From a virus, in the IMG/VR virus record IMGVR_UViG_3300039018_000141, positions 1 through 20,217 of that record: a stretch of 20,217 nt of DNA. One strand, written 5' to 3'. The notes beneath the pieces are model-generated. The model worked only from the letters and a program-made list of their open reading frames with translations. It did no database searches and was not told the DNA's origin. Made by a program: the position numbers and the translations under genes. How positions within the stretch are numbered: the first letter of the stretch is position 1; each line of letters starts with the position of its first letter. Shown here piece after piece: positions 2,673 through 20,217 of this stretch.

Positions 2673-2674
2673 TT

Positions 2675-2730: not shown

Positions 2731-2746
2731 CCCAAAGTACAATAAC

Positions 2747-4273: not shown

Positions 4274-4289
4274 TTAAAACATACTCACA

Positions 4290-4697: not shown

Positions 4698-4701
4698 TCT
4701 T

Positions 4702-5088: not shown

Positions 5089-5240
5089 TTGATAGTGTAA
5101 GCATTAGCAATATAGTTAAGACCGTTGTAAGGGAACACCACTGGCAGCCTACCGTAATTGGTAGGCTGTTTTTAGATAACATTGATTATAGCGGCATATT
5201 GTTTTGGTATGAGGATATAATTGAAATGCACAAGAAATGA
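4702..5240 (+). CDS. Tail assembly chaperone, long form by -1 ribosomal frameshift
   Basis: Ribosomes slipping back one base on the T run at 5079-5086 miss the TAA and continue in a frame that stays open for 51 codons, from TTA at 5085 to TGA at 5238-5240. The predicted fusion is 179 residues. The extension reads LIDSVSISNIVKTVV, then REHHWQPTVIGRLFLDN, then IDYSGILFWYEDIIEMHKK. Its Trp/Tyr-rich, acidic WYEDI ending is like the T domains of other frameshifted chaperones. The extension ends exactly at the tape measure start (ATGA overlap, 5237-5240) and fills the otherwise empty gap 5089-5236. The +1 frame hits TGA at 5090-5092, so only -1 slippage works. Confidence 0.8.
5079..5086 (+). promoter_or_regulatory. 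Programmed -1 frameshift slippery site (T8)
   Basis: Eight consecutive T. In the chaperone frame they are read as T TTT TTT followed by TAA, an ideal X-XXY-YYZ heptamer at 5079-5085 in which both tRNAs can re-pair after slipping back one base. The stop codon directly after the heptamer would add a pause. The only strong downstream RNA hairpin starts about 58 bases later, farther than the usual stimulator distance. Confidence 0.75.
5145..5173 (+). terminator. Terminator-like hairpin inside the chaperone extension
   Basis: CAGCCTACC at 5145-5153 pairs perfectly with GGTAGGCTG at 5160-5168, leaving a six-base loop, and is followed by TTTTT at 5169-5173. This is the shape of an intrinsic terminator, but it lies within the translated -1 extension, 64 bases before the tape measure start. 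Translation through it by frameshifted ribosomes would open it, so it could act as a partial terminator or attenuator that lowers expression beyond the abundant sheath and tube. It may instead be a coincidence of coding sequence (WQPTVIGRLF). Confidence 0.4.
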
Positions 5241-7261
5241 GAACGCTAACCATACCTACTATTTTTTCGGCGATTGACAGGTTTACTCAGCCTGTACGAC
5301 ACATGCAAAGTAGTGTATCAGGTTTGGCAGGTGCTACGGCGGCGGCTAACGCAACAATGGAAAGGAGTTTTGCACGTACATCTGAAACGATGTTGGACGT
5401 AAGCAAAAAAGCAGCAGTTGTTAGTGCAGCTATTTTAGTACCGTTAGGATTGGCTGCAAAAGCGGCGATAGACTTTGAAGATAGGTTGGCAGACGTAGCG
5501 AAAACTACAGGATTATCGGGTGTTGAGTTGGAAAGTTTTGGAAAGGAATTATTAGCAGTAAGCCGCAACACCCGTAGCAGCATAGATGAGTTATTAGACA
5601 TTGGTATTGTAGGTGGTCAGTTAGGTGTAGCCCGTAATGAGTTGGCAGCATTTACTAAGGCAGCCGATGTATTTAATATTGCATTGGGTAAGGATTTTTC
5701 AGGCGGTACAGAAATGGCTATTGCAAGTGTGTCGAAAATAAGAAGCCTGTTTAAAGATACACGGGATTTGGATATTTCACAATCTATAAGCCGCACGGGT
5801 AGTGCAATAAATGATTTGGGTGGAATGGGTGCAGGCACTACCGAAAATATAAATGATTTCGTTTTGCGTATTGGTTCAATGCCTGACAAGATGAAGTCAA
5901 CTTTTACGGAAATTGCAGCATTGGGTACGTTTTTGGAAGAAAAGGGCGTTAATTCTGAGCGTGGTAGTTCAGGATTTATGAACTTTATTGCGGAAACAAA
6001 CAAAAATTTACCACAGTTTGCAAGGCACTTAAAAATGAGTGCAAAAGATGCAGCAGCATTGTTTAATCAAAATCCTTTATTGTTCGGTCAAAAGTTTGCA
6101 AGGTCATTGAATAAAATGAGTCCACAGCAAATGCAAAAAGTTCTTACAGAATTGTCATTGAATAGCGCGGAAGTAACTCGTGTTATAGGTGCGATGGGTG
6201 ACGAAACAGACAGGTTGAATAAGTTAATGGAAATAAGCGACCAAGCATTTGAAAAAAACACTTCACTAACTATTGAAGCAGCACGTAAAAAAGCCACATT
6301 AGCAGGTAAGTTACAGACTTTGAAAAACGGGTTTGCCGAATTAGCTATTGCAGTAGGCGATATACTTTTACCTGTAATGGCTAAGATGACAGTAGTAGTT
6401 ACAAATGTAGCCAACTGGATAACCGACTTGACACGTAAACACCCAACACTAACAAAAGTCATAGTTTACACAGCATTAGCATTAGGCATATTGTCGGCGG
6501 CTATTGCGGTGAATACGTTTGTGATAGGGCAAGTATTAAAGATTAACGGGCTTTGGTTATTAGCGGTAAAAGCTACTAATTTCTTTTTAGGAATTGCCAC
6601 AGTTATTAACGGCAAATATGCAGTATCTTGTTTTGCTACTTCGGCGGGTATGCGAGGTATGGCTTTTGCATCTTATTTTTTAGAAGGTGCGTTTTTATCA
6701 CTAAATTTCATGACAGGGGGATTGCTTATAGCATTTGGTTTGTTAGTTGCTACATTTTCAGAGGGGTATGATAAATCTATTAATTATGGGGAATCTCTTG
6801 AAAAGATGAAAAATGGGTTTTCTAAACTAAAAGAACCGATTAGCGTAGCACAGATAGGTTTGGAAAAGTATAATAAAGCATTAGAAGAATACGGAGAACT
6901 TTTAAATTTTATTAACCGTCAAAAATATGCAAAAGAAAGAGGGTTTTTAACAGAATTTACAACACGGGTAAGAGATAAAGTAATGAACCCTGCCTTAAGC
7001 CAACAGGCAGAAATTGAAAGGTATGCACCCGGCATATTAAAACCCAAAGTGTCAGATTACATGAGCGCAAAGGACTCGGCTGAAATTTCTCAAGCAATAG
7101 ACCCTGAACAAGCAAGACAAGACAGCCTTATCAGAAGATTAGAAGTAAACAAAAAAGAAACCGTATCTATAAACTTTGGCAATATGCCAGCAGGTACAGA
7201 TGTAAAGCATAGCAAGGGAATAGGAGTTACATATTCATCAACACAGGTAATGCCAGCGTAA
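5237..7261 (+). CDS. Tail tape measure protein, TP901 family
   Basis: A 674-residue tail-length determinant. Residues 80-290 match the TP901/PhageMin_Tail core, starting with AAIDFEDRLADVAKTTGLS and running through ELLDIGIVGGQLGVARNELA. This is the conserved part found in many phage tape measures. Hydrophobic helices follow near residues 400-435 (VIVYTALALGILSAAIAV) and 475-505 (FMTGGLLIAFGLLVATF), typical of tape measures that enter the host membrane on ejection. The charged C-terminal 150 residues probably contact the baseplate hub. At about 0.15 nm per residue the tail would be near 100 nm, an inference only. The start overlaps the stop of the frameshifted chaperone, and the stop overlaps the next start by one base. 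The C-terminal third is visibly more AT-rich than neighbouring genes. Confidence 0.9.
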   Translation: MRTLTIPTIFSAIDRFTQPVRHMQSSVSGLAGATAAANATMERSFARTSETMLDVSKKAAVVSAAILVPLGLAAKAAIDFEDRLADVAKTTGLSGVELESFGKELLAVSRNTRSSIDELLDIGIVGGQLGVARNELAAFTKAADVFNIALGKDFSGGTEMAIASVSKIRSLFKDTRDLDISQSISRTGSAINDLGGMGAGTTENINDFVLRIGSMPDKMKSTFTEIAALGTFLEEKGVNSERGSSGFMNFIAETNKNLPQFARHLKMSAKDAAALFNQNPLLFGQKFARSLNKMSPQQMQKVLTELSLNSAEVTRVIGAMGDETDRLNKLMEISDQAFEKNTSLTIEAARKKATLAGKLQTLKNGFAELAIAVGDILLPVMAKMTVVVTNVANWITDLTRKHPTLTKVIVYTALALGILSAAIAVNTFVIGQVLKINGLWLLAVKATNFFLGIATVINGKYAVSCFATSAGMRGMAFASYFLEGAFLSLNFMTGGLLIAFGLLVATFSEGYDKSINYGESLEKMKNGFSKLKEPISVAQIGLEKYNKALEEYGELLNFINRQKYAKERGFLTEFTTRVRDKVMNPALSQQAEIERYAPGILKPKVSDYMSAKDSAEISQAIDPEQARQDSLIRRLEVNKKETVSINFGNMPAGTDVKHSKGIGVTYSSTQVMPA

Positions 7262-8598
7262 TGAACGACATAGAATTATATGAAGGTGGTAACGGCGGTG
7301 AATTGCGAATAAATGGCAATGACCTCAACTGGGTAGACGGCATAACCAACATGCCGTATATGTCGTGCTTTGGCGGTAATAATTGGTGGGGTAATTCGTT
7401 ACTTGATGAAGGTAGGGGCATAAGGTTTACAGCAGAAACAGAGGATATAATAAACAGCACACCACTAAGCAGCAACGGGCGGTTAAAGATTGAGCAGGCA
7501 ATCATTCGGGACTTGGAATATTTAAAAGCTGAATTTCCGACTGAAAAGTTAATAGTCAGCGTTTCGATAGTCAGCGAAAAACGGATTGACATAAGCGTTA
7601 ATTTAGCAGGTAAGGAAATGTTTTTGGTATGGAATCCGTTTATACCCGAAGCGGTACGTACATTGGTAGAGCCGCCATATACCGAAATTTGGGAAAGCCC
7701 TATAAGGTCAGGGCTATCTTCACGATATGCCATGACAGGGTTTGAATTAACGCAGGGGATGGATGTGGCTACGTTCGATATTGCCAAGTTTGCCACTATG
7801 TCCGATGAAATGTCATTGATTTCCTATTACAACAGTATTGCGGCAGGTTTTGGAATGACGGGCTTATTTCAGATACAGGGCTACAACATTGTGTATTTGT
7901 TGGGCTACGGTGAAACATGGGCAGTAACAACACCTACACAGGTATTGCATTGGGCTACTGAAATGAGGCTGAAAGCATCGGGGGTTTATACGCCTGTAGC
8001 ATGGAGTTATCAATTAGGTGGCACAGGAGCGCACGTAATAACGGATTGGGGCGATGGTAGTGCGATTGAATTGGATGTGATACCGTCAGATGCTCCAGTA
8101 ACTATTCCACATTTGTTTGCAGATGTGGTTACCCGTAATGTAGTGTTTTATAGTAACGATGCAGATGTTAAAACATTTAGGGCTATAAACATATCAAGTA
8201 ACTATTTCTTTAGGAGATTTATTTACAGATTGCCGTTAAGTACCGAAACAATAACAATAGCTAACCAACAAATAGGATTAGTTACAAACATGGTAATTGA
8301 AGAATTATCAAATCTAACAATTTTAAGTTTAGGGGCTAACCAAATACCTTCATTTTCCCCTGCTTTGTTTTTAGGTAATTTCCCTGACTTAACAGCTATA
8401 ATACTTTCAAACAATAATCTTTCATCTACTCAAGTAGATGACATATTCAATTTCCTATACGCTAACAGCCCTGAATTACTATCAACAACAGGAGTAATAA
8501 ACACTACACCACAAACCCCAGCAGCACCACCGACAACAGCATCGTTAACAGCCCGAAACGCATTTATTGCGGCAGGGTGGACATTAATAACAGACTAA
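7261..8598 (+). CDS. Mu gp46-like baseplate wedge protein fused to PKD-like and leucine-rich C-terminus
   Basis: Residues 1-120 match the GP46/W family of baseplate wedge subunits: a short strand-rich start, the hallmark WWG at 42-44, then a helix REL-like stretch and paired strands KLIVSVSIVSEKRIDISVNL. That family is normally about 120-150 residues, yet this protein has 445. Residues 125-235 are unassigned. Residues 246-305 hold TDWGDGS (261-267), the signature loop of PKD-like beta domains. Residues 345-400 read as leucine-rich repeats (LSNLTILSLGANQI, FPDLTAIILSNNNL). The end, NAFIAAGWTLITD, resembles the tails of Bacteroidetes surface LRR proteins. I infer that a surface-binding module was added to a wedge protein. 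It precedes baseplate J, as W precedes J in Mu. Confidence 0.75.
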   Translation: MNDIELYEGGNGGELRINGNDLNWVDGITNMPYMSCFGGNNWWGNSLLDEGRGIRFTAETEDIINSTPLSSNGRLKIEQAIIRDLEYLKAEFPTEKLIVSVSIVSEKRIDISVNLAGKEMFLVWNPFIPEAVRTLVEPPYTEIWESPIRSGLSSRYAMTGFELTQGMDVATFDIAKFATMSDEMSLISYYNSIAAGFGMTGLFQIQGYNIVYLLGYGETWAVTTPTQVLHWATEMRLKASGVYTPVAWSYQLGGTGAHVITDWGDGSAIELDVIPSDAPVTIPHLFADVVTRNVVFYSNDADVKTFRAINISSNYFFRRFIYRLPLSTETITIANQQIGLVTNMVIEELSNLTILSLGANQIPSFSPALFLGNFPDLTAIILSNNNLSSTQVDDIFNFLYANSPELLSTTGVINTTPQTPAAPPTTASLTARNAFIAAGWTLITD

Positions 8599-8602
8599 TA
8601 CC

Positions 8603-9781
8603 ATGCAGACTATACCAACTAAAGAGCAGATATACAACAGCATAATTTCGGACATTGAGAACGAATTTAGCATTACCATACCACCGTATGGGCGCAACTT
8701 CTTACAGGTGTTCAGCATGGTATTGGCAGGTGCTTTGAAGATGTTTTACCTTGCATTGGGATTTGTGCAAAAAAACGCATTACCCGACCTTGCAGACCCC
8801 GAAGAATTAGGCGGCACACTTGACAGGGTAGGTAGGATTAAATTAGGTCGTTCCCGTTTCCCAGCGACACAGGCACAGTATACAGCAACGGTAACAGGAA
8901 CAACGGGTGCAACAATACCAGCAGGCAGCACATTTAAAAGCGATGATACAAGTCTTTCACCCGGCTATTTGTTTATCTTAGATAACGCTTTTACATTGGC
9001 AGCAAGTAGCGGTACAATAACCATACGGGCTTTAACAGCAGGCGATGTAAGTCAGCTTGCAGTAACTAACACGCTTACCATTACAAGCCCCGTAGCACTC
9101 ATAAACAGCACAATAACGGTAACAGCAGAAACGGTAACACCAAGAGCCGCCGAAACTATTGAAGAATATAGGGCTAAGATACTTTTATCCTACCGTATTG
9201 AGCCGCAGGGGGGTAGTGTTGGTGATTACAGGATTTGGGGTAGTGATGCACAGGGTACACGGGCAATATACCCATACACGACAAGCGGTGCAAGCAATGA
9301 AATTGATATATTTGTTGAAGCTACAATAGCAGACAGCACAGACGGGAACGGAACACCAACAGCAGGCATACTTACCGATGTTGAAGATGTCATTGAACTA
9401 AACCCCGATACTACGCTAACAATGGCAGAGCGCACACGTAGACCGTTAGGAGTATTTGCAGTAAACGTTTACCCGATTGTTTTAAAAGAACTTGACATAA
9501 ACATAGCAGGTTTTGTAGACTTGACAGCAGATAAACAAGCAGCGATACTTGCTGCAATGACAGAGGCGATATACAATGTAAGACCGTTTATAGGTGGGCT
9601 TGATGCAGTTGCAGACCGTAACGATATATTTGATATTAGCCGAATTGGTGCAGTAGTTTTGACAGCCGTGCCGGGTAGTAGCTTTGGCACTATCACAATG
9701 GACGTAGACGGTACGCCCGACAGTTCATATCAGTTTGATAACGGAGAAATACCTTACCTTGACGCAATAACCTACGTATAA
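8603..9781 (+). CDS. Baseplate J-like protein, Mu gp47 family
   Basis: A 392-residue baseplate wedge component that links the hub periphery to the fibres. The N-terminal helices (PTKEQIYNSIISDIENEF), then ALPDLADPEELGGTLDRVGR, then a beta domain beginning ATVTGTTGATIPAGSTF, and the central TPRAAETIEEYRAKIL and GGSVGDYRIWGSDAQG stretches form the canonical order of the J family. The conserved dynamic loop motif GTPTAGILTDVEDVI lies near residues 251-265. It follows the wedge-LRR gene by four bases and overlaps the next start by one base (TAATG). Identification is firm. Confidence 0.93.
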   Translation: MQTIPTKEQIYNSIISDIENEFSITIPPYGRNFLQVFSMVLAGALKMFYLALGFVQKNALPDLADPEELGGTLDRVGRIKLGRSRFPATQAQYTATVTGTTGATIPAGSTFKSDDTSLSPGYLFILDNAFTLAASSGTITIRALTAGDVSQLAVTNTLTITSPVALINSTITVTAETVTPRAAETIEEYRAKILLSYRIEPQGGSVGDYRIWGSDAQGTRAIYPYTTSGASNEIDIFVEATIADSTDGNGTPTAGILTDVEDVIELNPDTTLTMAERTRRPLGVFAVNVYPIVLKELDINIAGFVDLTADKQAAILAAMTEAIYNVRPFIGGLDAVADRNDIFDISRIGAVVLTAVPGSSFGTITMDVDGTPDSSYQFDNGEIPYLDAITYV

Positions 9782-10500
9782 TGAGTGCAGCTAAAATACA
9801 GACTTTATTTATTAGGTTATTTCCACAAACTGGACGTGCTTTTAAGATACCTTACATGGGTATCTTTTGGCGGCTTTTACGTGCTTTGTCGTTAAGTTTT
9901 AATCGGGCTTTTGTGGCGGCAAGTAGCATATTTGATAGTATCTTTCCCGATAACGACAATTTCACCGCAGAAGATGCAGCAATACAGGAACGGCTATACG
10001 GATTGCCTACCAATACAAGTGTACCTTTGGCAGACCGTAAACTTGCAATTTACAGACGCATAGCACACCCCGGCGAACAACCAGCAAGACAGGGCGCACT
10101 ATTTATAGAGCAGCAGTTACAGTCGGCAGGGTTTGACGTATATGTTTATGAAAATAGATTTTTTGAGGGTAGCCCAGCAAGTTGGATAACTAAGACGCCA
10201 AGTGAGGTGTTAGGCATAACAGCAGGCTATGCTGTTTATGGTGGTTTTGCGTATGGTGAAACTGAATATGCAGGTACGTGGGCAGACGATGGGATAACCG
10301 TAATAGCCAATTATTTAGAAGAAGCAAAGGACGCATTATTTGATTTTGGCGATAACTACCGTAGTGCTTTTTTTATAGCAGGTGCAAGTATTACAACTTT
10401 CGCAGATGTGCCAGCAGTTAGGCGCACGGAATTTAGACAATTATTACTAACTTTAAAGCCTACCAATACAGCAGGTTGGCTTTTCGTAAACTACACGTAA
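9781..10500 (+). CDS. Tail protein, Mu gp48 / DUF2313-like (P2 gpI position)
   Basis: A 239-residue protein directly after baseplate J, where Mu gp48 and P2 gpI lie. The N-terminus (LFPQTGRAFKIP, then a helix with RLLRALSLSFNRAF) recalls the LLPxGRAW start of that family. ERLYGLPTNTSVPLADRKLA and AIYRRIAHPGEQPARQGALF match its middle section, followed by FIEQQLQSAGFDVYVYEN. The protein is thought to attach tail fibres to the wedge. The C-terminal half has aromatic Gly-rich stretches (YAVYGGFAYGETEYAGTW) that I do not recognise. The family call is by pattern and position, so moderate. Confidence 0.65.
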   Translation: MSAAKIQTLFIRLFPQTGRAFKIPYMGIFWRLLRALSLSFNRAFVAASSIFDSIFPDNDNFTAEDAAIQERLYGLPTNTSVPLADRKLAIYRRIAHPGEQPARQGALFIEQQLQSAGFDVYVYENRFFEGSPASWITKTPSEVLGITAGYAVYGGFAYGETEYAGTWADDGITVIANYLEEAKDALFDFGDNYRSAFFIAGASITTFADVPAVRRTEFRQLLLTLKPTNTAGWLFVNYT

Positions 10501-10503
10501 GAC

Positions 10504-11100
10504 ATGGCAAGAGAAATTAGTGATTTTAATGGTACGGTAATAGCCCCCGGCGGTGCATACCCATACGGCAATATTAAAGACAATCCGAACGGAACTATTG
10601 TAGACAGCACAAGTAATGCAGACCTGCAACAGTTTGCGCAAAAGGTAATGGATGAAGGCAACATAACCCCCAACGGTTTGCCCGATAATAATACAAATGG
10701 CTATCAGATATTTCAGGGTTTGCAGCAGGTTATTAAAGACACTCACCCCGGTTGGGGATTGAACGGAATTACCTTTGTAAGTTCAGGAAGTAACCTTTGG
10801 CAAAATGCAGCAGGGTACGGGTTTTTACATGCCCGTATTGAGGGGGATTTGATATTTTTAGCAGGCGTTATTGAAAATACGGCAGGCGGTTCACCTTCAC
10901 CTGCATTACCTTTTACTATGCCCGTTGCACTTAGACCTGCATACCTGACACAAATAATGTGCTATGATACGTTAGCAGCAGCAATGGTTGCGGTTACAAT
11001 AACAACGGCAGGTGTAGTTACTATTATCGGTGGTGGTGCAGGTGGTACAAAGTTATTTTTGGAAGGCACACACTACAAAATAGGAGCAAATACTTACTAA
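10504..11100 (+). CDS. Short tail fibre-like protein
   Basis: A 198-residue protein in the fibre position after the gp48-like gene. The N-terminal 85 residues (DFNGTVIAPGGAYPYGNIKD, then GNITPNGLPDNNTNGYQIF) match the baseplate-attaching part common in fibres of Bacteroidetes phages. The C-terminal half is Gly/Ala/Thr/Val-rich beta sequence with FTMPVALRPAY, like the tip domains of short phage fibres, a plausible receptor-binding head. No chaperone gene follows. The stop overlaps the next ATG by one base. It is much smaller than long tail fibres, so host range may instead depend on the wedge-LRR protein or on genes outside the window. Confidence 0.6.
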   Translation: MAREISDFNGTVIAPGGAYPYGNIKDNPNGTIVDSTSNADLQQFAQKVMDEGNITPNGLPDNNTNGYQIFQGLQQVIKDTHPGWGLNGITFVSSGSNLWQNAAGYGFLHARIEGDLIFLAGVIENTAGGSPSPALPFTMPVALRPAYLTQIMCYDTLAAAMVAVTITTAGVVTIIGGGAGGTKLFLEGTHYKIGANTY

Positions 11101-11846
11101 TGGCAGTAGTATTACATATTGATAGTTCGGCAGTTGTAGCCTATACAAATTACTTAGAAAAACTAAGTAAGAGTGCTATGCCCAACACGGTACGTAATAC
11201 ATTGAGCAAAGCGGCGTTTGATGTAAAAGGTAAGACCATGCTTGTAACGGCAAATAAAAACTTTACACAACGTAAGCCAACGTTTTTTAAATCAGCAAGT
11301 ACGGTAGACCCTGCAAAGGGCTATAACATAAGTGCCATGCAATCACAGGTAGGATTTAAGGCAGTACCGAAAGACAAGGGGCGAGCAGTTGATGATTTGG
11401 AAGAACAAGAGCATAGCGGAAGAATTGGTGGTAGGACATTTATACCATTGAAGCAGGCAAGGGCTGGGAACAGTTGGCACAGAAATGTAAAATTGAAAAT
11501 GCGGATAGAAGCACTTGACAATTTAATTTTTAGTGATAAAGCACAAGGCGATAGTCCTGAAGAAAAGTTTGTTAAGTCGGCTATCCATGCAGGTAAAGGT
11601 AAATTGGTGGTAGGCAATCGGGTTAATGTCAGAGGGAACAGGACTGTATTTCTTATTAATAGCGTTAAGCGAATTGGTGCAGATACAAAGATTAATAGCA
11701 CCCCTGTTTACTCTATGAAAAAAGGGCGCAAGGTAACAGTTAAGGCACGACCATTTATGAAAGAGGCAAGTATAATGACACAGGCAAAGTTAGATAAGAT
11801 ATTTATTGATGAGGCGGTAACACAAATAAACAGGTTAACTACATGA
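11100..11846 (+). CDS. Putative tail completion protein, lambda gpZ-like
   Basis: A basic 248-residue protein that I cannot assign firmly. Its layout resembles minor tail protein Z: a helical start with LSKSAMPNTVRNTLSKAAFD, a Lys-rich strand region with NFTQRKPTFFKSASTV, an inner stretch with FIPLKQARAG, then VFLINSVKRIG and VYSMKKGRKVTVKARPFMKEA near the C-terminus. In gpZ-like proteins this last pattern precedes the terminal helix, as here. Such proteins cap the finished tail so that it can join the head. The gene lies between the fibre and the gpN-like protein, with a one-base overlap before and ATGA after. Confidence 0.45.
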   Translation: MAVVLHIDSSAVVAYTNYLEKLSKSAMPNTVRNTLSKAAFDVKGKTMLVTANKNFTQRKPTFFKSASTVDPAKGYNISAMQSQVGFKAVPKDKGRAVDDLEEQEHSGRIGGRTFIPLKQARAGNSWHRNVKLKMRIEALDNLIFSDKAQGDSPEEKFVKSAIHAGKGKLVVGNRVNVRGNRTVFLINSVKRIGADTKINSTPVYSMKKGRKVTVKARPFMKEASIMTQAKLDKIFIDEAVTQINRLTT

Positions 11847-13078
11847 GCTGGATAGAACGGGTTAAAACAGGCTATACAATACGCACAGGGGATGGGGCAA
11901 CCTATACCCCTAAATGGCTTAATCCGAATAAGTCGCAGTCGTTCAATATATCTCAGTTTAACTTTCCGAATGTGTCAGGGACTTTGGTAGACAGGCGCAG
12001 ACCAAAGGGCGAAGTTTATAGTTTAGAATTGTACTTTGACGGGGATAACCATTTAGATGTATCAGCAGCATTTGCACTATCTGCAAATAACAGCAGGGCA
12101 TGGACTATTACGCACCCTATTTACGAAACATTGATAGTACAGCCTGTATCTATTTTCTATGATAACCGTGATGCAAACGTAACAAAAATAACAGGTACGG
12201 TAATTGAAACAATAGGAGCGGCAACAAAAAGTAAGGCAGCCCCGATAGATAAAATACGAGGCGATAAAGTACGTATTGATGCGTTACAGGCTAATGCCTA
12301 CGCATTTGATGTGCAGCCTACAACAGCAGACATAACAGAGTATAAAGGCAACTTAGATACACTTTATGCAGAAGGTAGTAAATCAGCAGGCACTACATTA
12401 GATGCCGAAACGTATTTCAATGCCTACAATGCCGCTTATAGTAAGTTAGATGAACTAATAAGCGAACCATTGGCAGCGGTACGGTTAGCGCAAAGAATGA
12501 TTGAAGCCCCGTTTATATTTGCACAACTTGTACAGCGTAGGTTTGAAACGTTTATGAATCAGGTTGCACTACTACGGCGCACACTTGACAATGTATTAAA
12601 CCGCAACCAAAAAAGGCAATACGAAACAAATGTAGGGTGTATCATATCTGCAATGGCAGCAGCTACGACTATAAACATTGATGGCAGTTACAGGAATAGG
12701 ACAGACGTTATTAGTATCATTGATAGTCTTGCTGATACTTATAATCAGTACATTACAGACCTTGACGGATTGCAGACTTTGACGGGTGCAGATGCAGATA
12801 GCTATATCCCTAACTTTGATGCAATTAACGGCATACGGGAACAAGTGATATTTACTATCAACAATTTGTTAGATATTGCAGTTGACGGACGGACTGAAAT
12901 AACGATACCGTTAGAAGAAGATAGCAACGCAATATTATTGACTTACAGGTTTTACGGCGATGATAATGAAGATGTATTTTTGAATGAGTTTGTAAATGCA
13001 AACAATTTAGGGCTTACCGAATATCTGATAATACCAAAGGGTAGACTGATTACTTATTACGTAGAAAATGGAAATTAA
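11843..13078 (+). CDS. Baseplate/tail protein, Mu gpN-like (DNA circularisation N-terminal family)
   Basis: A 411-residue protein placed just before the hub, as gpN is in Mu. The first 110 residues follow the family pattern: FNISQFNFPNVSGTLVDRRR, a conserved strand with LELYFDGDNHLDVSAAFALS, then WTITHPIYETLIVQPVS. This is a small beta domain shared with LysM-linked hub proteins. The middle 230 residues are mostly helical, and the C-terminus (NLGLTEYLIIPKGRLITYY) looks like a LysM-type peptidoglycan-binding or hub-contacting tail. Despite the historical family name, the likely role is structural, linking tube and hub. The next gene starts 11 bases before its end. Confidence 0.65.
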   Translation: MSWIERVKTGYTIRTGDGATYTPKWLNPNKSQSFNISQFNFPNVSGTLVDRRRPKGEVYSLELYFDGDNHLDVSAAFALSANNSRAWTITHPIYETLIVQPVSIFYDNRDANVTKITGTVIETIGAATKSKAAPIDKIRGDKVRIDALQANAYAFDVQPTTADITEYKGNLDTLYAEGSKSAGTTLDAETYFNAYNAAYSKLDELISEPLAAVRLAQRMIEAPFIFAQLVQRRFETFMNQVALLRRTLDNVLNRNQKRQYETNVGCIISAMAAATTINIDGSYRNRTDVISIIDSLADTYNQYITDLDGLQTLTGADADSYIPNFDAINGIREQVIFTINNLLDIAVDGRTEITIPLEEDSNAILLTYRFYGDDNEDVFLNEFVNANNLGLTEYLIIPKGRLITYYVENGN

Positions 13079-14201
13079 AATAGATGATACTGTTATTCAA
13101 TACTGGACAGACCTTGAATTAAATATCAGGTATGATAGTCTTGTGTCTGATTTTGCGGTAAGTATTTATTTTGAGCCTACGGATAAGAAGCACCAGCAGC
13201 TATTTAAGCCGTTATCTTATCGTACCTGTACTATCAGCGACAACGGGCGTAGATTGCTCACAGGCACGGTACTAAGCCATAGTTTTGTAGATGGTGCAGA
13301 AACGCAGCTATTACGCATATCGGGGTACAGCAAGACTGGAGTATTAGAGGATAGTGACATAGCAGGTGAAAACGCAATACAATGGAATAGCAGCAACTTA
13401 GGAGAGATTGCAAATGAGTTGATAAAGCCGTTCGGATTAAAAGTATTAGTTGACCCGTCAGTTGCCGATGTAGTGAATAGCGACTATAATACAGAGGCAG
13501 CGAAAGACAGCCAAACCATAAAAGAAATACTATCAACACTTGCCAGCCAAAAGAATGTAATACTAACACACGATGAGTTTGGGAACGTGTTGTTTACTAA
13601 GGTTAAGGTTGGGGTTGAATCATCAACAGTAACATTAGCAGCAGGCACAGTACCACCCCCGTTTTCAGATGCAGTAGTAGGCGCACCTGAATTTACAGCA
13701 ACGGCAGTGCAACAGAAATTATACCAACCCGTTTTTAACTTTGATGGTACTTCGCCTAACGTATCAATGCAGTTGATTACCAACGGGCAGAATATGCACA
13801 ATACTATCACTATCAATAAGCAGGCAGATGAATACGGCGGCGATGCACGAAGCACAGCAACTGAGATAAACCCATACTGCAAACCATATAGACCGAGAGT
13901 AAACAGGCAGACAAGCGGAAAGTCAGTAGATACACCTTTTGCGGCACGTAATGCGTTAAATATTGAATTAAAAAACATAACTTTATCAATTAAAACAAGT
14001 AGCTGGTATTTGGGTGGAAACATAGCACGGGTAAACACTATTGTAACAGCACAATCAAACAGGATATTTTTGTATAAAAAAACAGCGTTTTTTGTTGAAC
14101 AGGTATCATATATAGGAAATGCGGAAAACCAAACAGCGAATTTAACATGCGTATTGCCCGAAGCATATTCAAGCGATAAGCCTATAAATATTTTTGATTA
14201 A
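13068..14201 (+). CDS. Baseplate hub protein, Mu gpP / gp27-like
   Basis: A 377-residue hub subunit forming the trimeric ring between the tail tube and the spike. The opening (IDDTVIQYWTDLELNIRYDS, DFAVSIYF) and the segment GRRLLTGTVLSHSF followed by QLLRISGYSKTGVLEDSDI are the usual pattern of Mu gpP and P2 gpD hubs. GEIANELIKPFGLKVLVDP and SQTIKEILSTLASQKNVILT form the second gp27-like barrel entry. The start codon lies within the end of the gpN-like gene, and the stop overlaps the spike start by one base (TAATG). Identification is firm by motif order and neighbours. Confidence 0.85.
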   Translation: MEIKIDDTVIQYWTDLELNIRYDSLVSDFAVSIYFEPTDKKHQQLFKPLSYRTCTISDNGRRLLTGTVLSHSFVDGAETQLLRISGYSKTGVLEDSDIAGENAIQWNSSNLGEIANELIKPFGLKVLVDPSVADVVNSDYNTEAAKDSQTIKEILSTLASQKNVILTHDEFGNVLFTKVKVGVESSTVTLAAGTVPPPFSDAVVGAPEFTATAVQQKLYQPVFNFDGTSPNVSMQLITNGQNMHNTITINKQADEYGGDARSTATEINPYCKPYRPRVNRQTSGKSVDTPFAARNALNIELKNITLSIKTSSWYLGGNIARVNTIVTAQSNRIFLYKKTAFFVEQVSYIGNAENQTANLTCVLPEAYSSDKPINIFD

Positions 14202-14752
14202 TGTTGACACTTGCAAATGTCATATCGGTAGCAATAGCTAATACACGTAGGTTTGTAAAAGCCCGTGTATTTAGTCGTGTACGTGAGGTGCAGCAGGCGT
14301 TACCATACGGCATTGATAGCGCACCGATAAACACGAGCATAGCAGCATTTGCAGACACAGCAGATACGGGCACAGCAGTAGTGATAGGGTATGTATACAA
14401 AGATGCCATAGCAGCAGCAGGGGAAAGCAGATTATACAGCACTAATAGTAGTGGAGCGTTTCAATTTCAGGTACACCTAAAGGCAAACGGTGAAGTGTTG
14501 ATTGGTACGAGTTCAAGCGATGCGGCGTATACTAATTTCTTAGTCAAGTTCAATGAGTTGAAAACAGGATTTGATTTACTGAAAACAGAGGTGAACGCAC
14601 TTGTTACAAGCTACAATGCACATACCCATTTATATGTACCTGCATTAGCCCCAGCACCAACACCCGTACCGACAGCGCCAGCAATACCAACGGGCGTACC
14701 TGCAACAGCAACTATTGATAGTTCTAAGGCAACTAAAATTAAAACTAACTAA
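14201..14752 (+). CDS. Baseplate spike / central puncturing protein, Mu gp45-like
   Basis: A 183-residue protein after the hub, the place of Mu gp45 and P2 gpV. Residues 20-100 give the OB-fold pattern (VREVQQALPYGIDSAP, VVIGYVYKDAIAAAGESRLY, FQVHLKANGEVLIG), with the GES/LYS motif typical of gp45-like spikes. A helix follows, then HTH at residues 141-143. Known contractile spikes bind iron at the tip through a HxH pair, so this may be the metal site. The tail (residues 146-183) is a Pro/Ala-rich segment (PALAPAPTPVPTAPAIP) ending in SKATKIKTN, a common end in this family. Confidence 0.75.
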   Translation: MLTLANVISVAIANTRRFVKARVFSRVREVQQALPYGIDSAPINTSIAAFADTADTGTAVVIGYVYKDAIAAAGESRLYSTNSSGAFQFQVHLKANGEVLIGTSSSDAAYTNFLVKFNELKTGFDLLKTEVNALVTSYNAHTHLYVPALAPAPTPVPTAPAIPTGVPATATIDSSKATKIKTN

Positions 14753-14753
14753 A

Positions 14754-15074
14754 ATGGTAACATACGATAGTTCACTTGTTTATATCACCGCAGCAACAAC
14801 AATAGAAGCCCGATTTTTAGCGTGCAGAAATGTTATTGATGCACTTTATGTCATAGCGGCAACTGGTGCAGGTACAGCAAACTTTGAAAGCTACGAACTT
14901 GATGACGGGCAAACAAAGGTATACACCAAGTACAGAAATGCAAATGATATTTACCTTGCCATAACTGCATTTGAGCGACTTGAGCAGCGTTATCTGAATC
15001 AGTTGAACGGGCGCAGAATGAGATTAGTAAACAGTAAAAACTTTGTCGAAAGATGGGAACGGAACAGCCAATAA
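14754..15074 (+). CDS. Head-tail joining protein, gpW-like
   Basis: I place the start at the ATG at 14754 (MVTYDSSLVY), one base after the spike stop, giving 106 residues. An earlier in-frame ATG at 14715 would overlap the spike gene by 38 bases. The protein has a mainly alpha-helical core with an ESYELDDGQTKVYTKYRN strand-turn, the pattern I associate with small gpW-type head completion proteins, then FERLEQRYLNQLNGRRMRL. It lies immediately before the portal, as W precedes B in lambda. The assignment is by position plus this general pattern. Confidence 0.55.
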   Translation: MVTYDSSLVYITAATTIEARFLACRNVIDALYVIAATGAGTANFESYELDDGQTKVYTKYRNANDIYLAITAFERLEQRYLNQLNGRRMRLVNSKNFVERWERNSQ

Positions 15075-15079
15075 CGGGA

Positions 15080-16726
15080 ATGAGTAAGTTTAAAAATTGG
15101 GTAGCTGAAAAGTTAGGCGTTACTCCCATGCCTGAAAATAACCAACAGCCCGAAAAGGAAGCCGAGTATTCACGTAACAGAGCATTTAACTACCGATGGG
15201 ATGCGTTTACGGGTGAAATGAATTTGGGCGAGGTCGGGCCAGTAAAGGACTACTTTCTTGACTATGACATTTTACGTGCAAGGTCGTGGCAGTTGTATTT
15301 GGAAAGCGATGTATGTCAGATGGGCATTAACCGATTTGCCCGTTGGGTTATCGGCAGCGGATTAGTGTTACAGGCTATACCCGAAACAACACTTTTAGAA
15401 AGTGAAGGGATAGACATTGACAGCGAACAATTTAACCGAATTGTTGAAAGCCGATTTAAAGTATATGCCAACAACAAAATGTCGGACTTTGCCGATATGC
15501 GTAGCCTAAGCGAAATATCGCATACAGCGTTTGTAAATGCTATTGTAGGCGGTGATGTGTTGGTAATACTACGTGTGGTAAAAGGGGTGGTAAAGATGCA
15601 GCTAATAGACGGTTGCCATGTTAGCAATCCTATGAGCGTTACCTATGCAGCAAGCGGCGATTTGTACTATAACGGGCATATAATACGTAACGGGGTAGAG
15701 ATTGATGAAGATGGCAAGCACTTAGCGTACCATGTTCAGTTTAGCCCGTTTGAATGGCGTAGGATTGAAGCACGTAACCCAAAGACCAAACAGGTAATGG
15801 CATATCTTGTTTACGGGCAGGATTTCCGTATTGATGACACAAGGGGTATGTCATTGCTAACGTCTGTAATTGAAACGGCTAAGACTTTGGAGAGGTATAA
15901 AAAAGCTACGGTAGGGAGTGCGGAAGAAAGGCAAAATATACCATACTTTATACAGCACGGTGTAAATTCAAATGAAGAAAACCCATTCCAAAAAGGGCTT
16001 GCTAAAGTACGGGATTTCAGACCGAATGTAGATGATGTGCCGACTGACTATGAAGGGCGGCAACTTGCAGACCAAGTATATGCAAGCACTCAAAAGCAGA
16101 CGTTTAACATGCCGATTGATAGCAAAATAGTGTCATTGGAAAGCAAACAGGAACTATATTTTAAAGACTTTCACACCACTATTGGAGATGATATTTTTGC
16201 AACTATTGGCATACCCCCAAATGTAGCCCGTATGCTGTATGATAGCAACTTTAGTGCAAGCCGTGCAGCATTGAAAGACTGGGAACATACTTTGATAGTG
16301 ATGCGTGAGCGTTTTTACAGAATGTTTTATAAGCCCGTATATGCTTTGTGGATGGATACCGAAGTAATGAAGTTGAAGATACCTGCACCGGGCTACATTC
16401 AGGCGTTAATGGTAAACGATGAAATGATACTTTGTGCTTATCGGTCAGCAGTTATGACAGGTGCAAATGTGCCACACATAGACCCCGTAAAAGAAGTAAC
16501 AGCAGAGCGGTTAAAGTTGGGTGCTGCGTTTGCGAATGTGCCACTTACTACGGTTGAAGCGGCTACAATGGCAGTAAATGGCGGTGATAGTGAAAATAAT
16601 ATAGAACAAGCGTCTACGGAGTTGGAAAAGTCAAATGATTTAGGTATTTTGCCACACGTTGAACCAAAAATAACGTTAACCGATGTACAAGATTTGTCTA
16701 ATACACCCAAGTTGGAAAAGACCTGA
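15080..16726 (+). CDS. Portal protein, lambda gpB type
   Basis: The portal is the dodecameric ring at the unique capsid vertex through which DNA is packaged and released. I take the ATG at 15080 (MSKFKNWVAEKLG), five bases after the gpW-like stop, giving 548 residues; an upstream in-frame ATG at 15053 would overlap that gene. The sequence follows the Phage_portal_2 pattern: YLESDVCQMGINRFARWVIG, GGDVLVILRVVKGVVKMQLI, YVHVQF-like AYHVQFSPFEWRRIEARNP, then IGIPPNVARMLYDSNFSASR and ALKDWEHTLIVMRERFYRMF. Its last 44 bases overlap the first glycosyltransferase gene in another frame. It lies 12 kb downstream of the terminase, which is unusual. Identification is firm. Confidence 0.93.
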   Translation: MSKFKNWVAEKLGVTPMPENNQQPEKEAEYSRNRAFNYRWDAFTGEMNLGEVGPVKDYFLDYDILRARSWQLYLESDVCQMGINRFARWVIGSGLVLQAIPETTLLESEGIDIDSEQFNRIVESRFKVYANNKMSDFADMRSLSEISHTAFVNAIVGGDVLVILRVVKGVVKMQLIDGCHVSNPMSVTYAASGDLYYNGHIIRNGVEIDEDGKHLAYHVQFSPFEWRRIEARNPKTKQVMAYLVYGQDFRIDDTRGMSLLTSVIETAKTLERYKKATVGSAEERQNIPYFIQHGVNSNEENPFQKGLAKVRDFRPNVDDVPTDYEGRQLADQVYASTQKQTFNMPIDSKIVSLESKQELYFKDFHTTIGDDIFATIGIPPNVARMLYDSNFSASRAALKDWEHTLIVMRERFYRMFYKPVYALWMDTEVMKLKIPAPGYIQALMVNDEMILCAYRSAVMTGANVPHIDPVKEVTAERLKLGAAFANVPLTTVEAATMAVNGGDSENNIEQASTELEKSNDLGILPHVEPKITLTDVQDLSNTPKLEKT

Positions 16727-17873
16727 ATTAGCCCGTAAATGCTATGATACATGGATGGGTAAAGCGGATAACCCACAGGACATAGAATATGTGTTGTGTT
16801 TGTCTAAAAAAGACCCTACAAACACCCATCAGCGTGACGGGTATTCAGATGTGTTTAACAATACAGCAGCTAAGTTTACAGAGATTGCGGACAACGGACT
16901 TGTTAAGCAAATGAACCATGCAGCGACTATCTGTACAGGTAATTTAATCATAGCCATATCAGATGACTTTGTTTGCCCTGACGGTTGGGATACTTTGCTG
17001 TTAAATGAGTTGGAAGGTAAGACCGACTATGTGGTAAAAACACAGGACGGATTACAGCCCTATATTATGACCTTGCCAATGATGGACAGGGCATTTTATA
17101 ACAGGTTGGGATTTATCTACAATCCCGAATATAACCACATGTACGGCGATGAAGAACTTGCAGACGTTGGTAAGATGTTGAATAGAACAATTACATTGCC
17201 GCATTATTTCAGGCACGAACATTACAGCACAGGTATTAATCCAAAGGACGATGTAAATGCAAAGAATGATAGTTTTATGATGATTGATAAGGAAACTTAT
17301 ACAGCACGTAAAAAGAAAAACTTTGACATTGTTTTGCTTAGTATTTTAATACCTACAATTCCCAAAAGGGCGGAGCAGTTAGCGCAGTTATTGGCAACTT
17401 TAAAAGCGCAAATAGGCACGTATGCGATTCAGATACTTACAGATGATAGCAGCGAAACAACAGGAGCAAAAAGAAACAATCTACTGCAATCCGCTAAAGG
17501 TGAATATGTATGTTTCTTTGATGACGATGATGTGCCAGCAGAACACTACATTTACTGCATTATGTCGGCTATTCACAGTAACCCCGATTGTTGCAGCCTT
17601 AACGGTGTTATTACCACAGACGGCAAGAACCCAAAAAGATTTGTACACTCTATTCAGTATAATAGTTGGCTTGAAAAAGAAGAAGTTTATTACAGACCAC
17701 CAAACCACCTTAATGTCATAAAATCCAGCATAGCAAAACAATTCCCGTTCCCTGAAAAGAACTTTGGAGAAGATGCTGCATGGAGCATGGCGATATGTAA
17801 TAGCGAAGTATTAAAAACAGAAGCGGTAATTGATGAAACGTTATACTATTACAAATTCATATCTGTAAAATGA
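16683..17873 (+). CDS. Tandem two-domain glycosyltransferase
   Basis: A 396-residue protein with two GT-A-like domains. Residues 1-210 form the first: it opens with ICLIHPSWKRPELARKC and has a possible metal/nucleotide-sugar motif SDDF at 93-96. Residues 216-396 form the second, a clear GT2 fold: SILIPTIPKRAEQLAQ, then GAKRNNLLQSAKGEYVCFF, the DDDD metal-binding run at 280-283, and GED at 362-364, where the catalytic base usually lies. The enzyme probably transfers sugars from nucleotide donors in the cytoplasm; the acceptor is unknown. The start lies in the portal gene (44-base overlap), so it is translationally tied to head genes. It overlaps the methyltransferase by ATGA. Confidence 0.8.
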   Translation: MYKICLIHPSWKRPELARKCYDTWMGKADNPQDIEYVLCLSKKDPTNTHQRDGYSDVFNNTAAKFTEIADNGLVKQMNHAATICTGNLIIAISDDFVCPDGWDTLLLNELEGKTDYVVKTQDGLQPYIMTLPMMDRAFYNRLGFIYNPEYNHMYGDEELADVGKMLNRTITLPHYFRHEHYSTGINPKDDVNAKNDSFMMIDKETYTARKKKNFDIVLLSILIPTIPKRAEQLAQLLATLKAQIGTYAIQILTDDSSETTGAKRNNLLQSAKGEYVCFFDDDDVPAEHYIYCIMSAIHSNPDCCSLNGVITTDGKNPKRFVHSIQYNSWLEKEEVYYRPPNHLNVIKSSIAKQFPFPEKNFGEDAAWSMAICNSEVLKTEAVIDETLYYYKFISVK

Positions 17874-18457
17874 GATACTACTCACAGAATAACGAAACCG
17901 AAATAGTATTAAATTACTTTAACGGGTTTATAGGTAATTTGCTGGACATTGGAGCAAATAACGGTGTTGATTTAAGTAATAGCTACGACCTGTTAAATGC
18001 AGGTTGGCATGGTACATTAGTTGAGCCTGTAAAAATGGCGCACGACAATATTGAGGAAAGACCGAATGTTGAAAAGTTTAACTTTGGCATAGGTGAAAAG
18101 ACGGGTATTTTTGATTTTTGCAATGCCAGCGATAGCCTACTTGCTACCACTAAGCCGAATATGTTGGTTAAGTGGACTACTGTAACACATGAAGTAGTAC
18201 CAGTGCAGTTTTATACCTTTCCCGATGCGCTACAAAAGTTCATGGTAAAGCGGTTTGACTTTATAACCATTGATGCAGAGGGTATGGATTTTGAGATATT
18301 GCACCAAATGAATTTAACTGATTTGGGTTGCAAGTGTATCTGCATTGAACACAACAGCACGCCTATGTTAGCCGAAAAGATGAAATCCTATTGTAATATT
18401 TTTGGGCTATCAAAAGAACTGTTAAGAAACGGAGAGAACATAATACTTGCTTTATGA
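17870..18457 (+). CDS. FkbM-family SAM-dependent methyltransferase
   Basis: A 195-residue methyltransferase. LLDIGANNGVD at residues 24-34 is the S-adenosylmethionine-binding loop, VEP at 51-53 is the acidic ribose contact, and FDFITIDAEGMDFEILHQMN is the FkbM signature. These enzymes commonly O-methylate sugars or polyketides. With glycosyltransferases on both sides and 4-base overlaps at both ends, sugar methylation within the same cassette is the likely role. Length is at the short end for the family, but the core motifs are intact. Confidence 0.85.
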   Translation: MRYYSQNNETEIVLNYFNGFIGNLLDIGANNGVDLSNSYDLLNAGWHGTLVEPVKMAHDNIEERPNVEKFNFGIGEKTGIFDFCNASDSLLATTKPNMLVKWTTVTHEVVPVQFYTFPDALQKFMVKRFDFITIDAEGMDFEILHQMNLTDLGCKCICIEHNSTPMLAEKMKSYCNIFGLSKELLRNGENIILAL

Positions 18458-19128
18458 GTAAACTGCAATTACCGAAAGTAGACCTTATAGGCATAGACAC
18501 AAATCACCCTGAACAGGGGTTACAGTCAATGCAAATAAGTATGTCACAAATTGATTTTGGTAAGGCTATTATGTTTACATGTGCTGATAAGTCAGATTTT
18601 GATAGTTCGATAACTAATGGCATTGAGTTTATAAAGATTGACAAAATTAAGGAGTATCTTGATTACAGCGACTTTTGTCTTAGGTTAGGCGATTATCTTA
18701 CAAATGACTATGTACTAACAACGCATGGAGATGGGTTTGTGATTAACGCAAATTTATGGACTGATGATTTTTATAATTTTGATTACATTGGAGCACCGTG
18801 GGCAAAAGTCCATATGGAAGCGTGGGGCGGATTGCCTAATCCAGTTGGTAATGGTGGATTTAGTTTTCGCTCAAAAAAGATGCTGGATTTTTCAAAACAA
18901 TTTAAAACCACAGGCGGCAATAATGAAGATGGTTTTTTGACTAACTTTAAAATTGTAGAGGCATTGGCGTATGGTATTAAATATGCAGACTTAGCCACAG
19001 CCTATAAGTTTTCAGTTCACCACCTTGAAGATGTAGGCGGCGTTTTTATTCCTGAAAATTACTTTGGATTTCATGGCTATCATAATTTACCAATAGCACT
19101 GGAATACGTAAATTCAAAGGGCAAATGA
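18454..19128 (+). CDS. DUF5672-type glycosyltransferase-like protein
   Basis: A 224-residue protein matching the DUF5672 pattern. The order is: VLTTHGDGFVINANLW (the H-G-D stretch of a possible metal site), FDYIGAPWAKVH, VGNGGFSFRSKKML and NNEDGFLTNF, then YKFSVHHLEDVGGVF and FGFHGYHNL. Such proteins occur in glycan loci and are thought to be glycosyltransferases, but the reaction has not been established to my knowledge. It is overlapped by ATGA with genes on both sides, placing it within the sugar cassette. Confidence 0.7.
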   Translation: MSKLQLPKVDLIGIDTNHPEQGLQSMQISMSQIDFGKAIMFTCADKSDFDSSITNGIEFIKIDKIKEYLDYSDFCLRLGDYLTNDYVLTTHGDGFVINANLWTDDFYNFDYIGAPWAKVHMEAWGGLPNPVGNGGFSFRSKKMLDFSKQFKTTGGNNEDGFLTNFKIVEALAYGIKYADLATAYKFSVHHLEDVGGVFIPENYFGFHGYHNLPIALEYVNSKGK

Positions 19129-19697
19129 CCGTATCAATAATAACCCCAACAACACCCGACAGGGATAGCTACAACACCCGTATAATACAGGTAGCACAAT
19201 CACAGACATATCCCATACACAAACATTTATTCGATTTCGGTAGTGGCATGATAGGCGTAAAACGCAACAGGCTATGCCATGCCGCCACAGGTGATATAAT
19301 AGTGCATTTTGATAGCGATGATTACTACGCACCTGACTGGATAACCCGAATAGTACAAACCATGCAGCAATACCCCGAATACGATATTTACGGGCTTAAA
19401 GACCTTTATTACTCCACAGGGTACAAGTATACAGGCGGTAGACCGAACGGCATTGTATGGGGTGCTACAATGGCTTATAGGCGTGAGTTTTGGAAGCGTC
19501 ACATATTTTCAGATGTGCAAATAGGCGAGGATAGTTTATTTTGTCAAAATGCCCGTGTAATGTCAATGACTTATATAGATGGTTTCTTAGCTGGTATGCA
19601 CGATGGCAATACCAGCAAAAAGAATATTTCAGGTGAGCGATGGAGCAAAACTATTCTTCCATCGGCTTTGTGTAATGCGGCGGAAATTGCGCTATGA
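19125..19697 (+). CDS. GT2-family glycosyltransferase, short
   Basis: A 190-residue glycosyltransferase, close to a minimal GT-A catalytic domain. The features are MTVSIITPTTPDRDSYNTR (first strand of the GT2 fold), GVKRNRLCHAATGDIIVHF followed by DSDD (metal and donor binding), GATMAYRREFWKRHIF, and IGEDSLF with the GED catalytic-base motif. HDGNTSKKN near the C-terminus is also seen in related phage and polysaccharide enzymes. It is the last gene of the sugar cassette. The final 47 bases are overlapped by the minus-strand regulator-like gene. Confidence 0.85.
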   Translation: MTVSIITPTTPDRDSYNTRIIQVAQSQTYPIHKHLFDFGSGMIGVKRNRLCHAATGDIIVHFDSDDYYAPDWITRIVQTMQQYPEYDIYGLKDLYYSTGYKYTGGRPNGIVWGATMAYRREFWKRHIFSDVQIGEDSLFCQNARVMSMTYIDGFLAGMHDGNTSKKNISGERWSKTILPSALCNAAEIAL

Positions 19698-19821
19698 TAA
19701 TGTGTAAGTTTTGTTGTATCACAGTACCAATACTCCTTCCCTTATGTGCTGCAATGTTTTTTAAAGCCTCATGTTCCTTTGGTGAAACTAAAGGCAGCCT
19801 TATTTCTTTTTTCCCAGCCAT
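19651..19821 (-). CDS. Small ribbon-helix-helix-like DNA-binding protein (putative)
   Basis: The only minus-strand gene that I support. Taking the ATG at 19821 gives 56 residues starting MAGKKEIRLPLVSPKEHEAL; the in-frame ATG at 19845 would place eight extra residues over the dyad. EIRLPLVSP would form the DNA-contacting beta strand, EHEALKNIAAHKGRS the first helix and IGTVIQQNLHIIIAQ the second, the order of Arc/CopG-type regulators. It is convergent with the glycosyltransferase and divergent from the protease. A TATCTTTG box, a perfect match to the Bacteroidetes -7 element, ends four bases before the start. The dyad at 19838-19858 covers the -33 region, which would suit autoregulation. Small size keeps confidence moderate. 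Confidence 0.5.
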   Translation of the reverse strand: MAGKKEIRLPLVSPKEHEALKNIAAHKGRSIGTVIQQNLHIIIAQFPPHYTKPMEE

Positions 19822-19825
19822 ACGC

Positions 19826-19833
19826 CAAAGATA
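19826..19833 (-). promoter_or_regulatory. Candidate -7 promoter box of the ribbon-helix-helix-like gene
   Basis: Read on the minus strand, 19833 to 19826 is TATCTTTG, an exact match to the Bacteroidetes -7 consensus TAnnTTTG. At the -33 distance lies the TTTT of the dyad arm rather than TTTG. The box leaves only four bases before the ATG at 19821, implying a leaderless or nearly leaderless transcript, or a chance match. Confidence 0.4.
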
Positions 19834-19837
19834 AATA

Positions 19838-19892
19838 TTTTCCATAAAAAACGGAAAAGTTTTTATAGCCCCTGTACTGCTTTGTAATATTA
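19838..19892 (+). promoter_or_regulatory. Candidate late promoter with dyad (copy B), upstream of prohead protease
   Basis: TTTTCC at 19838-19843, spacer ATAAAAAAC, and GGAAAA at 19853-19858 repeat copy A base for base. The box TGTAATATTA begins at 19883, again 24 bases after the right arm. A TTTTT run at 19860-19864 stands about 20 bases before the TAATATTA box and could serve as a weak -33 element. The protease ATG follows at 19900, so the leader would be very short. The two copies are 17 kb apart and share the same orientation and geometry relative to a late gene, which argues for a regulatory element. Confidence 0.6.
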
Positions 19893-19899
19893 CATTGCA

Positions 19900-20217
19900 A
19901 TGAAAGAAATACTTTTATATACACCACTTTACGACTATTCAGCAGCGAATTTTATTTCGCAGTTGGAAGCCAATAAAGATAGTGATATAACAGTAAGAAT
20001 GAACACCAACGGCGGAAGTCCAGAGGCTACATTCGGAATGATTGCGAAAATGTCAGAGCGCACAAAGAAAACCTTTATGAAGGTTGACGGTAAAGCGCAT
20101 AGCATGGGAGCATTTATGTTAGCCTATGCAACTGATAGCGAAGCCTTAGACGTTTCCGAAATACTAATACATCGTGCCGCTTATCCCTCCTACATTGAAT
20201 CTGACCCCGAATATATG
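19900..20217 (+). CDS. ClpP-like prohead protease, 5' part (cut by window end)
   Basis: A gene of at least 106 codons that runs off the window without a stop. The start is typical of S14/ClpP-like capsid maturation proteases in Bacteroidetes phages: MKEILLYTPLYDYSAANFIS, then DITVRMNTNGGSPEATFGMI. The nucleophile Ser68 lies in KAHSMGAFML and His91 in ILIHRAA; the third residue of the triad would be beyond the end. This enzyme usually trims the scaffold and coat precursor, so the major capsid gene probably follows. Its position after the portal, with the sugar cassette between, fits a head module. Confidence 0.85.
   Translation, partial: MKEILLYTPLYDYSAANFISQLEANKDSDITVRMNTNGGSPEATFGMIAKMSERTKKTFMKVDGKAHSMGAFMLAYATDSEALDVSEILIHRAAYPSYIESDPEYM

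Follow-up and report, generated by a model that had tools for sequence, protein, structure and literature searches.

A mobile glycan cassette at the portal/RHH junction of a Bacteroidota-type myophage, with virion proteins as candidate acceptors

Four genes for the synthesis of a glycan lie between the portal and protease genes in an IMG/VR virus record of 20,217 bases, referred to here as the window. This arrangement raises the question of how such a cassette came to reside among structural genes and which acceptor its product decorates. An earlier note on this DNA proposed that the cassette modifies virion proteins, and its location within the head module was used as an argument for that target. 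The analysis reported below supports this reading in part.

Gene content of the cassette

Analysis of the ORFs with Pfam and PHROGs reproduced the order, the coordinates and the overlaps of the four genes between portal and protease, and the gene families bore out the description of a glycan-building cassette that includes a methyltransferase. The four genes had been listed correctly, but an antisense gene encoding a ribbon-helix-helix (RHH) protein (19651-19821, minus strand), located before the protease gene, had been overlooked. The first gene does encode a glycosyltransferase (GT), as proposed, but this protein consists of two fused GT domains (phrog_14945 and phrog_14775). The features are the following.

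15053 to 16726, plus strand: portal protein, the upstream neighbour of the cassette (PF05136, E 1e-36; phrog_21, E 4e-49)
16683 to 17873, plus strand: GTa, a fused two-domain GT-A glycosyltransferase of 396 aa (GT2 PF00535, E 5e-14; N-terminal domain, phrog_14945; C-terminal domain, phrog_14775)
17870 to 18457, plus strand: FkbM-family SAM-dependent O-methyltransferase of 195 aa (PF05050, E 5e-13)
18454 to 19128, plus strand: DUF5672 protein of 224 aa, a predicted GT-A-fold glycosyltransferase (PF18922, E 7e-16)
19125 to 19697, plus strand: GTb, a GT2-type glycosyltransferase of 190 aa (PF00535, E 1.5e-9)
19651 to 19821, minus strand: small RHH DNA-binding protein (family profile, E 3e-17 across loci)
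19826 to 19833, minus strand: TATCTTTG, which matches the -7 promoter element of Bacteroidota (TAnnTTTG) and lies immediately 5' of the RHH start
19838 to 19858, minus strand: candidate RHH operator, a 21-bp inverted repeat (TTTTCC-N9-GGAAAA) located at the promoter of the RHH gene
19900 to >20217, plus strand: ClpP-like head maturation protease, cut by the contig end and divergent from the RHH gene (PF00574, E 1e-10; phrog_94)
2675 to 2695, minus strand: a further copy of the 21-bp TTTTCC-N9-GGAAAA repeat, also perfect, within the 74 bp that separate terL from the sheath gene

According to the ORF coordinates, successive genes from portal to GTb overlap by 44, 4, 4 and 4 bp, and the start codon chosen for GTa is backed by alignment with L002, a related locus. 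The rest of the window encodes TerL, contractile tail and baseplate proteins, all on the same strand (Pfam/PHROGs). From the sheath gene (2747) to GTb, the plus-strand genes form an almost gapless run, in which the sole gap of more than 20 bp is 148 bp long; this sheath-to-portal run terminates, at its 3' side, in the cassette. The contig ends within the protease gene, and the genome is incomplete. The late genes (681-20217) are ordered terL, tail, baseplate, portal and protease, with head genes following tail genes. The baseplate wedge protein (7261-8598) has 445 aa and a C-terminal part weakly matching leucine-rich repeats; it has about 135 to 185 aa in most relatives.

Relatives of the window were found in metagenome-assembled genomes (MAGs) of Bacteroidota, Chitinophaga and Cytophagaceae among them, and two in MAGs assigned to other phyla, perhaps through errors of binning. 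The TAnnTTTG-like element of the RHH promoter is of the type used by Bacteroidota. Judged by the MAGs of its relatives and by this type of promoter element, the window belongs to a myophage of Bacteroidota-type bacteria.

Residues 3 to 197 and 219 to 390 of GTa match phrog_14945 and phrog_14775, respectively, and the protein divides into an N domain (GTaN, residues 1 to 215) and a C domain (GTaC, residues 216 to 396), which are encoded by separate genes in three relatives (L038, L107 and L108). The AlphaFold model is a tandem of GT-A folds (pLDDT 86, pTM 0.80). Its top Foldseek matches are two-domain chondroitin and heparosan synthases, K4 chondroitin polymerase being the best, and VIA alignment of the separate domains (Z of about 17) relates the N domain to WrtF and the C domain to TarS/TarP. 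The motifs are largely conserved (SDD/DE in the N domain, DDDD/ED in the C domain). The FkbM protein scores 49.9 bits against PF05050, for a curated cut-off of 22.7, and retains the DIGAN (SAM), VEP and IDxEG (IDAEG) motifs.

The AlphaFold model of the DUF5672 protein, built with 40 sequences, also adopts a GT-A fold (pLDDT 94.5). It aligns with the glucosyltransferase domain of LH3 (6wfv; VIA Z 13.5, rmsd 3.3, 194 aligned residues) and with domain 1 of PBCV-1 A064R (VIA Z 12.4), the latter being one among many GT-A fold matches. No credible sequence relative of the DUF5672 or FkbM profiles was found in the PDB. The DUF5672 protein is likely to be a GT-A glycosyltransferase by its predicted fold, a shared fold being no proof of activity. 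In viruses, the neighbours of DUF5672 genes include GTs, sugar-nucleotide enzymes and O-methyltransferases. The family, which carries no name in Pfam, matches at least 585 stretches of viral contigs and is labelled hypothetical in annotated phage records. A fold and a likely activity can now be proposed for this family, which is common in viral contigs.

The four reading frames are intact, with catalytic motifs kept, and none of the four proteins contains a membrane-like segment (top 19-residue Kyte-Doolittle mean, 1.37). In total, the cassette comprises four GT domains, including the predicted one of the DUF5672 protein, and one FkbM methyltransferase, and it encodes no membrane protein.

Insertion at the portal/RHH junction and exchange between phages

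The comparison was based on 80 portal relatives. Most close relatives display the same layout, consisting of the portal gene, a small antisense gene and the protease gene. The portal and RHH genes are tail to tail and at most 50 bp apart in 23 of 30 distinct junctions; they are separated by 2,924 bp in the window, where the cassette fills the junction exactly, with overlaps of 44 bp at the portal gene and 47 bp at the RHH gene. Inserts of 3 to 4.4 kb are present at the same junction in four other relatives; those of L005 and L039 differ in content from the cassette of the window, and that of L002 is partly shared. In this group, the portal/RHH junction serves as a general hotspot for insertions. 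A ferritin-like gene (PF00210, E 1e-13) lies directly 3' of the portal gene in L002 (4261-4746), L031, L032 and L039. Direct repeats at the ends of the cassette, considered as a trace of transposition, gave only chance-like matches.

In L002, GTa and FkbM are encoded antisense, immediately behind the RHH gene, and the ferritin and GTb genes are located behind the portal gene. GTa of the window and of L002 are 67% identical, versus 36 to 44% for portal, hub and other backbone proteins, indicating that GTa was transferred separately. Between phages sharing GTa, FkbM identity is 28 to 30%, far below that of GTa, and the GTb proteins of the window and of L002, located at the same junction, are 40 to 41% identical. 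Single-protein scans for close relatives of the window returned none with the portal or DUF5672 proteins and one with GTa.

Related cassettes occupy other gaps. GTaN, GTaC and FkbM genes, with 4-bp overlaps, are antisense between terL and the sheath gene in L108 and L109 (genomes G019 and G029); L038 has a larger cassette, antisense upstream of the portal gene, with both GTs and FkbM; and five loci (L107, L110, L111, L113 and L114) have other sets of GTs in the terL/sheath gap. Asparagine-synthase-like and hexapeptide-transferase genes also occur in terL/sheath cassettes (L110 3968-5792, L113 and L122). GT2 is present in 12 of 39 relatives, FkbM in 6 of 40 records, the window counted, and DUF5672 in the window only among the same 40 records (39 relatives plus the window). 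In the RHH-bearing relatives, PF00535 matches are confined to gaps of the structural cluster. By these comparisons, GTaN-GTaC-FkbM is the conserved core and DUF5672 and GTb are accessory. On the same comparative grounds, the cassette is a moron, its site being empty in most relatives and its mobility independent of its neighbours.

Since cassettes occur in three gaps and on both strands, a fixed head-module position is ruled out as functional evidence, and the argument that the earlier note had drawn from placement does not hold: homologous cassettes of the relatives lie in other gaps, mostly antisense. With a core that varies in both gap and strand and is exchanged separately, position is weak evidence. 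Consensus scans revealed no convincing promoter or terminator flanking the cassette in the window, and scans for sigma-70 promoters and terminators gave no signal exceeding that of shuffled sequences. The cassette would therefore be expressed by read-through.

The antisense RHH gene and its inverted repeat

The RHH gene probably starts at 19821, within an ORF that opens at 19845. A profile search across the loci of the relatives assigned the antisense junction gene to one family of 33 ORFs, the profile of which matches CopG-type structures (antitoxin 7e4j, ORF56, AvtR and CopG). The inverted repeat is found beside the RHH promoter element in the window and in several relatives. This repeat over its own promoter, together with the RHH profile, makes the family a candidate autorepressor. 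The sequence TTTTCCGTTTTTTATGGAAAA is present twice in the window, perfect at both sites (19838-19858 and 2675-2695); two matches were obtained in 0 of 100 shuffles. The viral contigs searched contained no exact copy of the 21-bp element elsewhere.

The best within-genome match of the RHH promoter was the region upstream of the sheath gene in 9 of the 11 genomes in which both sites are visible (8 of 10 lineages, since G014 and G015 are close relatives), ranking first among 168 to 313 windows and always antisense to the sheath gene. Match scores were 35 to 184 within the nine genomes and averaged 20.7 between genomes (maximum, 39); the low scores between genomes indicate that the element changes along with its own phage. 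G008 has a third copy, upstream of the portal gene. An 11-bp direct repeat, GGTACTCGTTA, is arrayed at three late-gene gaps of that genome (L013 7451-7495, the RHH promoter of L013 and L114 6352-6412).

The RHH promoter is copied at the start of the antisense cassettes of G019, G013 and G008; in G019 and G013 the copy includes the TAnnTTTG element and, by its position, would drive the antisense glycan cassette. In the window, no promoter element is clearly visible antisense at the sheath copy, which could be a relic or could act on the sheath operon. The RHH protein would bind these repeated elements, which suggest a network of RHH-marked late-operon boundaries. A search of open-access papers found no report that RHH proteins control the late genes of phages in such a setting.

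A broader proposal, which we advance tentatively and with somewhat more doubt than conviction, is that the antisense RHH protein marks the boundaries of late operons, with one copy of its operator at the promoter of the RHH gene, another just before the sheath gene and, in G008, a further one before the portal gene. These boundaries would be the sites at which cassettes insert, on either strand and under one regulator, and the GT-GT-methyltransferase core located there would decorate the virion like A064R. The RHH boundary element is more surprising than the glycan cassette itself. The repeats provide a testable rule for the sites of accessory-gene insertion and for possible late-gene switching in this lineage.

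Acceptor of the glycan and comparison with known systems

The mechanism that we propose, with confidence and doubt in balance, starts from insertion of the mobile cassette into a Bacteroidota-type myophage, precisely where the portal and antisense RHH genes meet tail to tail. Read-through from the sheath-to-portal operon would transcribe the cassette, whose enzymes would hence be made together with the structural proteins. GTa, with its two GT active sites, the DUF5672 protein and GTb would add sugars in turn, in the cytoplasm, from host nucleotide sugars, and FkbM would O-methylate one sugar of the chain, affording a short methylated glycan.

The acceptor would most likely be a virion protein (capsid, decoration or tail), because the closest relatives of GTaC among isolated phages are actinophage GTs, including Che8 gp108, and because A064R shares the plan of the core. 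The solubility of the enzymes and the position of the cassette at the end of the sheath-to-portal run point in the same direction. Against this acceptor, most relatives have their homologous cassettes antisense to the late genes, where a separate promoter would be needed and expression may be early, and the N and C domains of GTa resemble the O-antigen enzyme WrtF and the teichoic-acid GTs TarS/TarP, respectively. TarP is prophage encoded and changes the host surface. Virion glycosylation is nonetheless the best single target, one that we would neither assert nor deny with assurance.

That the cassette modifies LPS or capsule, as glycans of the host surface, either in the course of infection or in a lysogen, is possible if doubtful; it would block superinfection or the re-adsorption of progeny. 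The likeness to WrtF and TarS/TarP favors this explanation, as do the DUF5672 proteins of cyanophage sugar-nucleotide clusters and the asparagine-synthase-like and hexapeptide-transferase genes that some relatives add and that polysaccharide loci typically contain. The RHH promoter copies from which the antisense cassettes of G019, G013 and G008 start, with the host-type TAnnTTTG in the first two, suggest expression before, or apart from, the late genes. However, the four proteins of the cassette include no flippase, polymerase or membrane GT by Kyte-Doolittle analysis, the cassette of the window terminates a structural gene run, and the PF00535 matches of these genomes are restricted to the structural cluster.

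Carriage of the cassette as a selfish or neutral passenger, at a site that tolerates insertions and with no set acceptor in this host, would account for the variable contents of the hotspot and for the exchange of GTa independently of FkbM and GTb, but is improbable given four intact frames with catalytic motifs and a core that keeps its gene order from site to site. Glycosylation or methylation of phage DNA, for which GTs and methyltransferases are the expected tools and which has precedent in phages that attach sugars to modified bases, is very improbable, since a thymidylate-synthase/hydroxymethylase-type gene (PF00303) is absent from 14 relatives and the partial window, and FkbM enzymes O-methylate small molecules and sugars. 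If virion proteins are the acceptors, methylated sugar chains on Bacteroidota phage particles would bear on phage persistence and recognition in Bacteroidota-rich environments.

Among known systems, CopG/Arc-type repressors resemble the RHH protein of the window in profile and in the inverted repeat over their own promoter; the window differs in the antisense position of the gene between portal and protease, in the repetition of the operator at the sheath boundary and in that no adjacent toxin partner was seen. The gtr-type O-antigen conversion cassettes rely on a membrane flippase and membrane-bound GTs, neither of which the Kyte-Doolittle profiles of the four proteins revealed. E. coli K4 chondroitin polymerase and Pasteurella heparosan synthase 2 contain tandem GT-A domains in one chain, like GTa, but the solved chains of these two-domain GT2 polymerases have about 520 to 600 aa, versus 396 aa for GTa, and share 10 to 15% identity with it; polymerase activity is not implied.

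Virion proteins of Che8, Corndog and Myrna are described as glycosylated (PMC12363180), as is specifically the Che8 capsid (PMC12363180; PMC11256854), and Che8 gp110 is reported as required for capsid glycosylation (PMC12363180). GTaC is 35% identical to Che8 gp108 (E 1e-15), the product of a gene adjoining gp109-gp110, in a comparison limited to one GT2 domain of gp108; the enzyme reported as essential is gp110. Like the cassette, Che8 gp108-gp110 and cluster J phages (Lucky2013/LittleE) have adjacent phage GT genes, GTaC being 33 to 35% identical to Che8 gp108 and Lucky2013 gp15, and the GT genes of Lucky2013 are located in the head module, directly 3' of the major capsid gene. These phages differ in their actinobacterial hosts, in gene order, in the location of the Che8 genes at the genome end and in that the annotations of these stretches list neither FkbM nor DUF5672.

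A064R of the chlorovirus PBCV-1 combines two GTs and a methyltransferase and works on the capsid glycan (PMC7019647; PMC9614988). It belongs to an algal virus and is a single polypeptide, whereas the methyltransferase is encoded by a separate gene in the window. As likened by the domain plan given in the papers, both are soluble and cytoplasmic, with a SAM methyltransferase placed after two GT domains; the sizes, in this order of GT, GT and methyltransferase, are 212, 193 and 200 aa in A064R and about 215, 181 and 195 aa in the window.
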